Below are positions 60,694 through 64,000 of a stretch of DNA of 64,000 nucleotides, one piece after another (within the stretch, counting starts at the first letter, position 1; each line of letters begins with the position of its first letter). Location: contig NZ_JAIQZN010000010.1 in the NCBI RefSeq assembly GCF_023333585.1, positions 5,995-69,994 on the forward strand. The letters are read 5' to 3'. Made by a program: the position numbers and the translations under genes. The notes under the pieces were generated by a model. It searched no databases. It was not told the origin of the DNA and worked only from the letters and a program-made list of their open reading frames with translations. The DNA comes from Argonema antarcticum A004/B2. GTDB taxonomy: Bacteria; Cyanobacteriota; Cyanobacteriia; Cyanobacteriales; Aerosakkonemataceae.

Positions 60694-61159
60694 GACACTT
60701 TTTCACGCAACAACAGTCATTGATCAAATTACCCCACCCCAGACAGGATCTCAACTGGGCTTGAGCGTTGGATATGTGCCAGTTGGGTGGGTAGCCCAAG
60801 GTTGCTGGGCGATCGCAATCTTCACAATATCTTCATCGAATGTATGTAAAATCACTGGTTATGAGACTATAAATAGTATGTTAGGGTGCATTCGGAAGAA
60901 GACTCATTGAGGGTCGCTGGCTCGATCATAAGTATATAGGCTTTAAGCATTTGAATGGTGAATTAACAGCTTGGGGGCAGAGTGACTCCAAGGTAATTCT
61001 CATCACCAGCAATGATGGAACTGTCACCAAGATGCCTAAGCTTTACAAATAAAGTAAGGTCTTAAAAGGTTAGCTGATACTTTCGATCGGAGCGTTCTTG
61101 CGATCGCACCTTTGAGTCTCCCCACGCTCGAAACACATTTGTTGGGAGGCATCACCTCT
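60694..61159. other. Spacer with a possible decayed small gene
   Basis: 466 bp between trx and the second PEP-CTERM gene. A 55-codon open frame without start codon (60885-61052) reads IEGRWLDHKYIGFKHLNGEL then SDSKVILITSNDGTV and MPKLYK before TAA; its composition is protein-like, so it may be the 3' remnant of a gene. A 72-codon plus-strand frame at 60692 is antisense-like and not supported. Confidence 0.4.
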
Positions 61160-61957
61160 ATGAAAACTTTTACTCCAAAAATCTGGAATCAAATCGGTTT
61201 GTCGCTAACCATCCTCACTGGTGTCGGATTTGCAACAGTGCAATCTGCGACAGCCGCCTCTTTAACCGTTGCCGGTTACACCTGGGATGCTGCCGACTCT
61301 GTAGTCGGAGGATCGATCGTCTCAGGAAGCCAGAACATCTCTGGTTTCTATGCCAACTTCCTCGCAGACAAGCCCGAAGTTGCCAGTAAAACCGTAGGCT
61401 CGATTCTTGGCTTCGATCCCGGCGTCAGCACCTCCATAGACCTTGGCGATGAGACCAACAGAGGCGTCATCGAACTCAACTGGGGAAAAGGGATGTCTCT
61501 GACAAACGCGGCTGGTAAGGACTTGGTAGTATACGAGACCGGTAGCTGGGGGTCTCCAGAGGCTTATGCCGTCTCTGTTAGGAAAGTAGGCTCTAGCAGC
61601 TTCAGCGAGTTCAGATACGAGTTCAGCGATGGATTTGAACCTAACGTTTTTGCCACAGGTTTCGACTTAAGCGATTTCGGTATTGGCAACAACGAAGAAA
61701 TCGATGCTATCCGCATCACCAACTTGCTGGCAACGGACAAAGTGAATGGCGCTGATGGACGGGGATTCCTTGGCGGTAGCTTCGCTCCTCAAACTGGTGG
61801 GTTTGGTTCAGGAGATTACGTCGCCGGTAAGTTTGACGCAGATATCACCTTTGTGGCTGGTCTGCACAAACCGAAGCCTGTTCCCGAACCAACTTCTGCT
61901 TTAGCTTTGCTGGTGTTTGGTGCTGCTGGTGCTGGTGCCGTGCTAAAACGGCGTTAG
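61160..61957 (+). CDS. PEP-CTERM secreted protein, 265 aa
   Basis: A 265-aa exported protein with a signal peptide (MKTFTPKIWNQIGLSLTILT to ATAA) and a C-terminal VPEPTSALALLVFGAAGAGAVLKRR sorting segment. The body has beta-sandwich-like composition (ELNWGKGMSLTNAAGKDLVV, DYVAGKFDADITFV) but no enzymatic motif. The ATG at 61160 is chosen over the TTG at 61112 because a signal peptide then starts at once; GGGAGG lies 10 nt upstream. It is unlike the other PEP-CTERM protein in the body. Confidence 0.85.
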   Translation: MKTFTPKIWNQIGLSLTILTGVGFATVQSATAASLTVAGYTWDAADSVVGGSIVSGSQNISGFYANFLADKPEVASKTVGSILGFDPGVSTSIDLGDETNRGVIELNWGKGMSLTNAAGKDLVVYETGSWGSPEAYAVSVRKVGSSSFSEFRYEFSDGFEPNVFATGFDLSDFGIGNNEEIDAIRITNLLATDKVNGADGRGFLGGSFAPQTGGFGSGDYVAGKFDADITFVAGLHKPKPVPEPTSALALLVFGAAGAGAVLKRR

Positions 61958-62087: not shown

Positions 62088-63245
62088 ATGAATATCTTTC
62101 TTAGCAATATTCGCCTCAAATGGTTTCTTGCCACTAGGGCTTTAGATTATAGCGCCGATTTTGTCAAAATTTTGTATCAAATCTATTTAAACCATAACAA
62201 AATTATACACTACCGTAACGGATACCCGGTTTATTCCCTATCCACCCCAGCTTTATTCAGCAAGCCAGCCTCAAACTTTATCGCTCGCGCATTATATCGC
62301 AGCATTCAAAATAAAAACTTGCCCAACTTGATGAGTTTTGCTGTCAATGACATCTGCAATGTCACTTGCGAGCATTGTAGTTTCTTCACCGGAGTAGAAG
62401 AAAAAGGCAGAAATATTTTGACATTAGAGCAAGCCAAAAAACTCATCCAAGACGCTCAAGATTTGGGAGTATCTGTAATTAACTTTGTCGGCGGCGAACC
62501 ACTGCTCCGAAAAGACTTACCGGAAATTATTAGAGCGGTCAACAAAGACTTTTCTACGACTGTTTTATTTACCAACGGTTGGCATTTAGAAAAGCGGGCA
62601 GCAGAATTTAAAAAAGCGGGCTTAGACAGCATCTATATTAGCATTGATGCCGCAACTCCAGAGAAGCACGACCAATTTCGGAATCAGCCAGGTTTGTTCG
62701 ATCGAGCAATGCGGGGTATCCAAACAGCGAAAAAGTTAGGCTTTTCGGTAGGAATCTCCACAACCATGACACCTGAATCTTACCGCGATGGAGAATTAGA
62801 TAAAATTGTCAAACTAGGAAAAAACATAGGAATTCATGAAATACTGGTATTTGAAGCTTTACCAACGGGAAGGTATAAAGAGCGACAAGACTTAGTTGAC
62901 AACAACAACTGGGTAGAAGATATGATCCAGTCAGGCAGAAAATACAACCAAAATCCCAGTTATCCCGGAGTTGTTTTCTTTTCTTACTTCACCAGTCATC
63001 GCAGCGTCGGTTGTTCCTGCGGTACGAGTTATTTTTACGTATCTCCTTACGGAGATATTATGTCCTGCGATTTCAATCATGCCAAATTTGGCAGCATTCT
63101 TGAAGAACCCCTGTGGAGGATTTGGGAGAGATTGAGTACGCTACCCGAATTTTGTCAAGCAAAGTGGGGTGGATGTAAAATTAAAGATTCTGAATTTCGG
63201 CAAAAAGAGACTGTCTCAGGCGGAAACCTGAATATCCACATTTAG
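62088..63245 (+). CDS. Radical SAM protein with SPASM-like C-terminus
   Basis: A 385-aa radical SAM enzyme. The [4Fe-4S] motif is CNVTCEHC (Cys90, Cys94, Cys97), followed by NFVGGEPLLRKD (the GGEP motif) and SIDAATPEKHDQFR. The C-terminal part contains VGCSCGTSYFYVSPYGDIMSCDF and CQAKWGGC, a cysteine set like SPASM auxiliary clusters. An N-terminal 80-residue extension (LSNIRLKWFLATRALDY) is unusual and may bind a membrane or partner. The substrate is unknown. The next gene, a multi-pass membrane protein, starts 16 nt after the stop, so the two are likely an operon. Confidence 0.88.
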   Translation: MNIFLSNIRLKWFLATRALDYSADFVKILYQIYLNHNKIIHYRNGYPVYSLSTPALFSKPASNFIARALYRSIQNKNLPNLMSFAVNDICNVTCEHCSFFTGVEEKGRNILTLEQAKKLIQDAQDLGVSVINFVGGEPLLRKDLPEIIRAVNKDFSTTVLFTNGWHLEKRAAEFKKAGLDSIYISIDAATPEKHDQFRNQPGLFDRAMRGIQTAKKLGFSVGISTTMTPESYRDGELDKIVKLGKNIGIHEILVFEALPTGRYKERQDLVDNNNWVEDMIQSGRKYNQNPSYPGVVFFSYFTSHRSVGCSCGTSYFYVSPYGDIMSCDFNHAKFGSILEEPLWRIWERLSTLPEFCQAKWGGCKIKDSEFRQKETVSGGNLNIHI

Positions 63246-63261
63246 TAATTACTATTACCCT

Positions 63262-64000
63262 ATGATTTCACACCTCTATCTCAATCCAATTCTGGCCAAC
63301 TGCAACTTCGATAAAAGCCCTACTTTACCAATTGTTCTGTTTGAAATTTTTATTGTTGCTGGAGTTGCTGCCGCTTTCATTATACTTCGTAAAGTCACAG
63401 ATAAATTGCCCCTACGCTTTCTCATAATGAGTTCGGGAGTGATGATGTTTGAGTTATTCACCGCTCCCATGTGGAATAACTTCAGAATGGGGCAATGGGC
63501 TTATGTTTACCACGATGTTAGTTGGATTTTGACGATAGGTTGGGCAGCTTTAATTTTGGGAGTTGTGCTGTTTGTAGACAAACTTTTACCAGATTGGAAA
63601 CACTGGAAAAGATTTGCAGTTTATATAGGGATATTGACTGTAGCAGTCATCGTTTTAGAAACGATCGTTGTCAATATTGGACTTCGCAGTTACTCTCCTG
63701 AAGTTGTCAAGGCTATCTCAGGTATTTGGGTAGCGGGAGTACCGCTAGAAATCTTATATTACGTACCCGTGTTTATGGCATTAATCATCAGCTTTTACAA
63801 ATATTGGAGTTTCATAATAGACGATATACCTTTAGTACCTGTGAAGCGCAGAAAATGGGTGCGTAGCTTTTTTCTAGCTTTCTTAGCAATCTTCTTATTT
63901 GAAGTAATGATTGAGCCGATGGTAAACAATCAAAACTTTCCCACGTGGTCGTACATATTTCACGATATCAGCATTACACAGACTGGAATGTGGATTCTCA
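63262..64000 (+). CDS. Multi-pass membrane protein with internal duplication, 3' end outside the window
   Basis: From ATG 63262 an open frame runs to the window end (246 codons). It has at least six hydrophobic segments (IVLFEIFIVAGVAAAFIIL, LTIGWAALILGVVLF, YIGILTVAVIVLETIVV and others). Two stretches repeat: FELFTAPMWNN...WAYVYHDVSW and FEVMIEPMVNN...WSYIFHDISI, sharing FE-x4-PM-x-NN, W-Y and HDxS. The His-Asp and Asn-Asn pairs are in the same place in both halves, as in proteins with two-fold membrane symmetry. I do not recognise the family. It is next to the radical SAM gene, 16 nt after its stop. Confidence 0.8.
   Translation, partial: MISHLYLNPILANCNFDKSPTLPIVLFEIFIVAGVAAAFIILRKVTDKLPLRFLIMSSGVMMFELFTAPMWNNFRMGQWAYVYHDVSWILTIGWAALILGVVLFVDKLLPDWKHWKRFAVYIGILTVAVIVLETIVVNIGLRSYSPEVVKAISGIWVAGVPLEILYYVPVFMALIISFYKYWSFIIDDIPLVPVKRRKWVRSFFLAFLAIFLFEVMIEPMVNNQNFPTWSYIFHDISITQTGMWIL

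Follow-up and report, generated by a model that had tools for sequence, protein, structure and literature searches.

A radical SAM enzyme and a duplicated membrane protein as a candidate accessory module of a putative lipid-biosynthesis locus in three bacterial phyla

In the cyanobacterium Argonema antarcticum A004/B2, a gene for a radical SAM protein (rSAM) is followed on the same strand by one for a multi-pass membrane protein (MEMB), and together they head an array of nine same-strand genes, rSAM-MEMB-SM-UbiA-PPDK-DUF3419-GNAT-u143-AMP. Our tentative proposal, held with somewhat less than even confidence, assigns rSAM, MEMB and the small protein SM to an accessory module. The biosynthetic locus to which it belongs would make an uncharacterised membrane lipid, probably one that contains an isoprenoid, with core and module acting as set out below. 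The locus is defined by its gene content and order, the co-occurrence of its genes, the duplication within MEMB and conserved acidic and aromatic residues, and from these we infer every reaction and product of the pathway.

The window, i.e. the whole stretch of 64,000 nucleotides that was analysed (G000:C167:5995-69994), belongs to a 7.74-Mb genome, whose family also includes Microseira wollei (G003). An earlier note, made on the window alone, had placed the rSAM gene and, 16 nt downstream, a MEMB gene open at the window end, and had allowed that further genes might belong; both genes lie where it put them, and the array indeed continues with SM, UbiA and the genes listed below. The complete MEMB gene, read in the sequence of the same genome (L002:9257-10285, equivalent to window positions 63262-64290), encodes 342 aa. 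The features are as follows:

62088..63245, forward strand: rSAM, Radical SAM/SPASM-type protein of 385 aa, first gene of the array
62088..62351, forward strand: N-terminal extension of rSAM, about 80-88 aa ahead of the radical SAM core
63262..64000, forward strand: MEMB, duplicated multi-pass membrane protein, 246 codons inside the window
63382..63837, forward strand: repeat 1 of MEMB, about aa 41-192; repeat 2 begins at about 63832 and runs past the window end
After MEMB, same strand: SM, small conserved protein, 167 aa in the window genome
After SM, same strand: UbiA-family prenyltransferase, 304-309 aa
Same strand as MEMB: PPDK/rifampicin-phosphotransferase-like enzyme, 885 aa, with PPDK_N and PEP-utilisers domains (Pfam)
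Same strand as MEMB: DUF3419 protein of BtaA type, 403 aa
Same strand as MEMB: GNAT, 312 aa
Same strand as MEMB: u143 ORF, 132-143 aa, without a Pfam match
Same strand as MEMB: AMP-binding ligase (AMP-ligase), 526 aa

Directly 5' of rSAM lies a PEP-CTERM-type gene (window 61154-61957; 19.6 bits against a Pfam cut-off of 20.7), which had no counterpart in any other locus searched.

Full-length MEMB was recovered from 20 genomes, namely 16 cyanobacteria, three Elusimicrobia and one Riflebacteria; with duplicates merged, this set comprises the window genome, the 16 genomes of a genome-contig scan (13 cyanobacteria, two Elusimicrobia and one Riflebacteria) and G006, G248 and G632. Named strains among the carriers include Oscillatoria sp. 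PCC 10802, Microseira wollei NIES-4236 and Calothrix sp. NIES-4105. MEMB is present in six of 60 genomes made up of the window genome and its relatives, and in two of 386 spread across the cyanobacterial phylum. Matches were found in 13 of 247 genomes of the Elusimicrobia phylum (two full-length, 11 half-size) and in three of 39 of the Riflebacteria phylum (one full-length, one with two tandem half-size ORFs and one remnant). Plasmids gave no tblastn match to MEMB, and relatives of MEMB and rSAM were absent from viral contigs in pattern-limited scans. The earlier note had made its pairing depend on co-occurrence elsewhere, and among the 60 genomes rSAM (at E ≤ 1e-60) and MEMB (at E ≤ 0.001) are confined to the identical six, the window genome included, and never occur apart; moreover, rSAM, SM and a UbiA-family prenyltransferase are each encoded in all 20 genomes with full-length MEMB. 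One of nine genomes tested (G687) encodes UbiA and a MEMB remnant without rSAM at E 1e-30.

The gene immediately 5' of MEMB is rSAM in 18 of the 20 genomes. A NAD-epimerase-like gene separates the two in G632, and in the Riflebacteria genome MEMB and SM are on one contig and rSAM, UbiA, PPDK, SM, DUF3419 and AMP-ligase are clustered on another, which extends the linkage of rSAM with the core to a third phylum. SM, which is not duplicated and measures about 136-189 aa in 12 aligned sequences, follows MEMB in 20/20; in L029, L030 and L031 it was assigned by position and a 17-19% identity alignment, and all three were built into the SM model. In 17 genomes UbiA lies within the MEMB locus. The other three encode it at another place (e.g. 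about 64 kb off in FACHB-471 and beside rSAM in the Riflebacteria genome); in G632 it is at a contig edge, with the C-terminal half of PPDK and a CDP-alcohol phosphotransferase. The remaining partners are more variable: in the 11 cyanobacterial loci whose DNA reaches well past PPDK, DUF3419 is encoded in seven, GNAT in six and AMP-ligase in four, and all three are absent from the DNA beyond PPDK in L012, L022, L024 and L025. The loci of Oscillatoria sp. PCC 10802 and Calothrix sp. NIES-4105 encode all three. The Elusimicrobia order is UbiA, PPDK C-terminal half, CDP-alcohol phosphotransferase, GNAT, a protein without a Pfam match that we take to be VTE5/dolichol-kinase-like, PPDK N-terminal half, rSAM, MEMB and SM. 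DUF3419 was not found in these loci, and the CDP-alcohol phosphotransferase and VTE-like protein stand where it is missing. That distant phyla have the identical partners in another order argues that these genes work together and are not neighbours by chance.

Beyond the reach of the earlier note, the rSAM-MEMB pair appears to extend a broader core, which also exists without MEMB. A UbiA-family profile matched 22 of the 386 genomes from across the cyanobacterial phylum at E 1e-25, only two of which have MEMB. Of ten UbiA loci examined in genomes lacking MEMB (L083-L091, L093), nine have PPDK as well, and the one that does not, L085, is on a contig of only 5.4 kb; DUF3419, GNAT and AMP-ligase occur in seven each, with L083 having none of the three. 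None of the ten loci had a gene labelled as an rSAM of this family. Thus, rSAM-MEMB-SM looks like an add-on module to the wider core. In L093 a single 871-aa ORF (L093:9527-12142) fuses AMP-ligase and UbiA, which supports a functional link between these two.

Cyanobacteria normally use the MEP route, and a gene for HMG-CoA reductase was seen by the UbiA core at several places in the cyanobacterial phylum (e.g. L104:10528-11856, L089:7332-8870). As a core gene of the module it was rejected, being absent from all 12 genomes with an embedded module; it is present in eight of 12 other UbiA-bearing genomes, in six of these eight within about 8 kb of UbiA on the same contig, and in none of 20 relatives without MEMB, not all of which were checked for UbiA. 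These contrasts give Fisher p-values of 0.001 and 0.005, uncorrected for the relatedness of the genomes, and the pattern may reflect an alternative chemistry, though the genomes are related.

rSAM scores 98.3 bits against Pfam Radical_SAM (PF04055; cut-off 29.5) and 23.8 bits against SPASM (PF13186; cut-off 21.5), and its CxxxCxxC motif at aa 90-97 (62355-62378) is invariant in 16/16 aligned orthologues. The classical SPASM domain has a seven-Cys set for two auxiliary clusters, of which rSAM falls short: besides the CxxxCxxC, the 16 orthologues have only C309, C327 and C363 as invariant Cys. Hence, of the radical SAM protein with a SPASM-like Cys set described earlier, both domains stand and the Cys set is a reduced one. 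The N-terminal extension that had been singled out as uncommon is conserved over about 80 residues in 10 aligned sequences from Cyanobacteria and Elusimicrobia. The nearest NCBIfam models are AhbD (138.8 bits), NirJ2 (133.7 bits; both with cut-offs of 500) and MoaA-like ones, all far above the rSAM scores in their cut-offs, so that by sequence rSAM would be placed only in the broad radical SAM group; its PDB matches include SkfB (E 4e-14). The structure model of rSAM is poor, with a mean pLDDT of 62.7 and residues 1-77 below 50.

The duplication of MEMB suspected from the window is apparent at the profile level: the two halves of a 13-sequence alignment are homologous by hhalign (probability 99.9, E 3e-35), and the best self-match lies at an offset of 150-153 residues in all 13 sequences. 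The window-genome protein alone has 27 identities at offset 150, against up to 34 (mean 16) at the best offset in 500 shuffles, a rough control with offsets ranked by fraction; the single sequence falls within the shuffle range, and it is the profile that carries the duplication. The 13 relatives align end to end; acidic residues, Arg, Trp and Tyr are invariant at many positions, and such acidic, Arg and Trp positions occur in both repeats. In an AlphaFold2 model (pLDDT 83.9, pTM 0.85), the Microseira orthologue has one helix-strand pattern twice, 150 residues apart. The earlier note did not recognise the protein, and neither Pfam nor NCBIfam has a model that matches it at its cut-off, and the in-window part has one weak PHROGs match (function unknown, E 0.014). 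Foldseek against the PDB yielded nothing at E 0.001 or better, its top two matches being MvINS (E 0.13 and 0.14). With VIA-align, ranks 1, 2 and 4 for the second half of MEMB are MvINS, MvINS and Scap/Insig (Z 8.2, 7.9 and 5.8), though rank 3 is an unrelated ammonia lyase (Z 6.7) and, by the tool's own warning, a Z near 8 can reflect merely a common helical arrangement. The second half weakly resembles the six-helix Insig/MvINS fold (rmsd 3.4 over 132 residues at Z 8.2), but with 8% identity and no sequence-family match, and MEMB has two such halves.

A further, marginal likeness is to the CarR/CrtYcd lycopene cyclase domains, which are also multi-pass, two-part membrane proteins; a minority of MEMB members give marginal profile matches to them, with the P-x-E motif in register. 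At E up to 1, two of the 13 members match PF18916 (best 8e-4) and three of the 13 match TIGR03462 (best 0.0053). Both stay below their cut-offs (15.5 bits for the in-window MEMB against the PF18916 gathering score of 27; 17.4 bits for L029 MEMB against 39.4 for TIGR03462), and the full-length window-genome protein has no Lycopene_cyc match at E 0.1. The MEMB profile aligned with three Lycopene_cyc proteins at E 0.025 and a probability of 1.9%. Unlike the cyclase domains, whose models have 92 and 89 positions, the MEMB repeat measures about 150 aa; it has a single E where the Elusimicrobia Lycopene_cyc neighbours described next have P-x-E-E, and it lies here outside any carotenoid operon.

Half-size relatives of MEMB (about 175 aa, hhalign probability 99.6 to MEMB) are found in Elusimicrobia, several in tandem pairs (L054-L060, L062). 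They adjoin small Pfam Lycopene_cyc proteins in the three loci tested (L054, L056, L057), and other neighbours are histidine kinases (L058, L059), FadL-like porins (L059, L060) and Caroten_synth (L059). None of 10 half-size relatives matches Lycopene_cyc, one matches Caroten_synth (E 0.0021), and their profile against the three Lycopene_cyc proteins gives E 0.035 and a probability of 1.5%. With such neighbours, and with no UbiA-family member at E 1e-10 in 4/4 of these genomes tested, the half-size homologues were rejected as members of the system; their loci are possibly carotenoid or light-response operons.

Among the core enzymes, UbiA scores 49.5 bits against PF01040 (cut-off 34.2; 35.7 bits for the Elusimicrobia protein). 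Its best NCBIfam model is the prenyltransferase PRK13592, GGGP geranylgeranyltransferase models are among the next, and the match to chlorophyll synthase ChlG is weak (21.3 bits), with other UbiA models scoring higher. Of 28 rows, 27 have DExKDxxxD as the first Asp-rich motif and one has DEARDxxxD; in place of the second, 23 have E..RK.R, a pattern not found in the other five. The protein does not show both Asp-rich motifs of DGGGPS-type enzymes, for which PMC9385802 gives a second Asp-rich motif; the replacement suggests that this UbiA may not take a normal prenyl diphosphate. The PPDK-like enzyme shares PPDK_N, the PEP-utilising mobile domain and the phospho-His motif (present in 24 of 25 PPDK_C hits) with rifampicin phosphotransferase and the PigC-RedH ligases. 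It differs from the former in scoring 279.6 bits against the RPH model NF041857 (cut-off 999) and in being two separate genes in Elusimicrobia, and the model it fits best is PRK06241.2-2 'phosphoenolpyruvate synthase', with 760 bits where 883 are required. The DUF3419 protein matches PF11899 with 212.6 bits (cut-off 28.2). DUF3419 is the family of BtaA, an enzyme of betaine-lipid synthesis that moves an aminocarboxypropyl group from SAM onto a lipid hydroxyl. Unlike in the BtaA pathway, a BtaB-type methyltransferase was not recognised in the array, and GNAT, UbiA and AMP-ligase accompany the protein. The models nearest to the Elusimicrobia CDP-alcohol phosphotransferase are archaetidylserine synthase, the best, and phosphatidylserine synthases; together with the UbiA matches this recalls the archaeal ether-lipid pathway, but all scores are under the NCBIfam cut-offs.

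The best clue to a mechanism is the logic of the head group. UbiA would attach a prenyl group, or a hydrophobic group akin to it, to an acceptor; an intermediate would be activated by phosphoryl transfer through the phospho-histidine of the PPDK/RPH-like enzyme; and the BtaA-type DUF3419 protein would add an aminocarboxypropyl head to a lipid hydroxyl. In Elusimicrobia, the VTE5/dolichol-kinase-like protein and the CDP-alcohol phosphotransferase, of archaetidylserine/PS-synthase type, would add a phosphoserine-like head instead, the CTP-kinase-like protein possibly supplying the phosphotransferase with activated lipid; either route would yield an alpha-amino-acid head. GNAT is predicted to N-acylate the head amine with acyl groups provided via AMP-ligase. 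At the membrane surface, rSAM would use radical chemistry to alter a C-H or C-C bond of the hydrophobic part. Inside the membrane, MEMB may hold or cyclise the chain, with acid-base catalysis as in the CarR-domain lycopene cyclases. On the best reading of the observed linkage, then, the core would make a lipid of unusual kind, carrying a head of amino-acid type, whose hydrophobic part the module would modify. The lipid, carotenoid or quinone product suggested in the earlier note is compatible with UbiA, DUF3419, AMP-ligase, GNAT and the Elusimicrobia CDP-alcohol phosphotransferase, the product itself being something we infer. A bolder version, which we consider quite unlikely, is a new class of bacterial membrane lipid with an isoprenoid-type chain made via the atypical UbiA and an N-acylated alpha-amino-acid head from interchangeable enzymes (DUF3419 or PS-synthase-like), cyclised or cross-linked by rSAM and an intramembrane cyclase of two fused CarR/Insig-like halves. 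To our knowledge, rSAM-MEMB would be the first pair of a radical SAM enzyme and an integral-membrane cyclase.

Several observations sit uneasily with the lipid reading: MEMB is below both lycopene-cyclase cut-offs and its best fold match, Insig, is a lipid-binding regulator and not an enzyme; the second UbiA motif is altered in most rows; HMG-CoA reductase is missing from every embedded-module genome; and four cyanobacterial loci are without DUF3419, GNAT and AMP-ligase in the DNA beyond PPDK. It is conceivable, if unlikely, that MEMB is a non-enzymatic, Insig-like lipid-binding scaffold or sensor, which would anchor the soluble rSAM (and SM) to the membrane and present or meter the lipid, leaving rSAM alone as catalyst. 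The MvINS and Insig ranks in both structure searches and the histidine kinases beside half-size relatives in two of the Elusimicrobia loci tested are in line with such a role, but the Foldseek E-values, the generic helix arrangement that such a Z may reflect and the intervening ammonia lyase weaken the fold match, and the invariant acidic, Arg and Trp residues of both repeats resemble an active site. The doubled set of conserved Glu/Asp slightly favours an acid-base cyclase over an Insig-like holder.

The remaining alternatives concern the product. In C50 carotenoid operons a UbiA neighbour stands beside CrtYcd-type cyclases, CrtEb being the lycopene elongase and CrtYe/CrtYf the two-part cyclase, and the UbiA and MEMB of the array could be read likewise; the duplication, the marginal CarR-domain match, the adjacent UbiA and the Lycopene_cyc and Caroten_synth neighbours of the half-size relatives speak for this. 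It is nonetheless improbable, as neither phytoene synthase nor desaturase was recognised within the array, the head-group genes would go unexplained and the UbiA core exists also without MEMB. We regard as decidedly improbable a tetrapyrrole or quinone modification, with rSAM as an AhbD/NirJ-like side-chain decarboxylase and UbiA as a heme or chlorophyll prenyltransferase: AhbD and NirJ2 are the best-scoring rSAM models and ChlG is matched weakly, yet the former scores are far under 500, other UbiA models score higher, and DUF3419, AMP-ligase, GNAT and the CDP-alcohol phosphotransferase would have no evident role. A RiPP-type system, in which rSAM matures a peptide that MEMB exports, appears far-fetched despite the above-cut-off SPASM domain and the SkfB match; no precursor peptide was noticed, though without a dedicated search, SM at its conserved length is no short precursor, and the enzymes that accompany the pair across three phyla are of lipid type.

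No published description of a rSAM/UbiA/DUF3419/lycopene-cyclase-type locus was found in the full-text literature searched, which holds few subscription papers. The lipocone paper (PMC12419801), in its accessible text, has other UbiA-linked lipid operons and not a rSAM-MEMB-UbiA locus. Each of the enzymes falls into a known class. Neither the membrane family nor the combination nor the product is described in the literature searched. If the linkage means what it seems, large cyanobacteria (among them Microseira, Oscillatoria and Calothrix) and some Elusimicrobia and Riflebacteria would make a lipid for which the literature searched gave no description, by a route in which a radical SAM enzyme works with a membrane protein that no curated family covers. 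It would also hint at what the UbiA-PPDK-DUF3419-GNAT-AMP core does, whose genes here bear generic family names only, and the lycopene-cyclase fold might prove to be linked to that of Insig. Since several carriers are named strains, the product could be sought directly.

Two minor observations come from the Riflebacteria phylum. A 102-aa ORF in one genome (L107:8306-8614) matches both the MEMB and the rSAM models and is likely a remnant of the pair, and a putative formyltransferase-like gene, recognised by eye, occurs with UbiA at L101:14695-15459 and L106:7496-8257.
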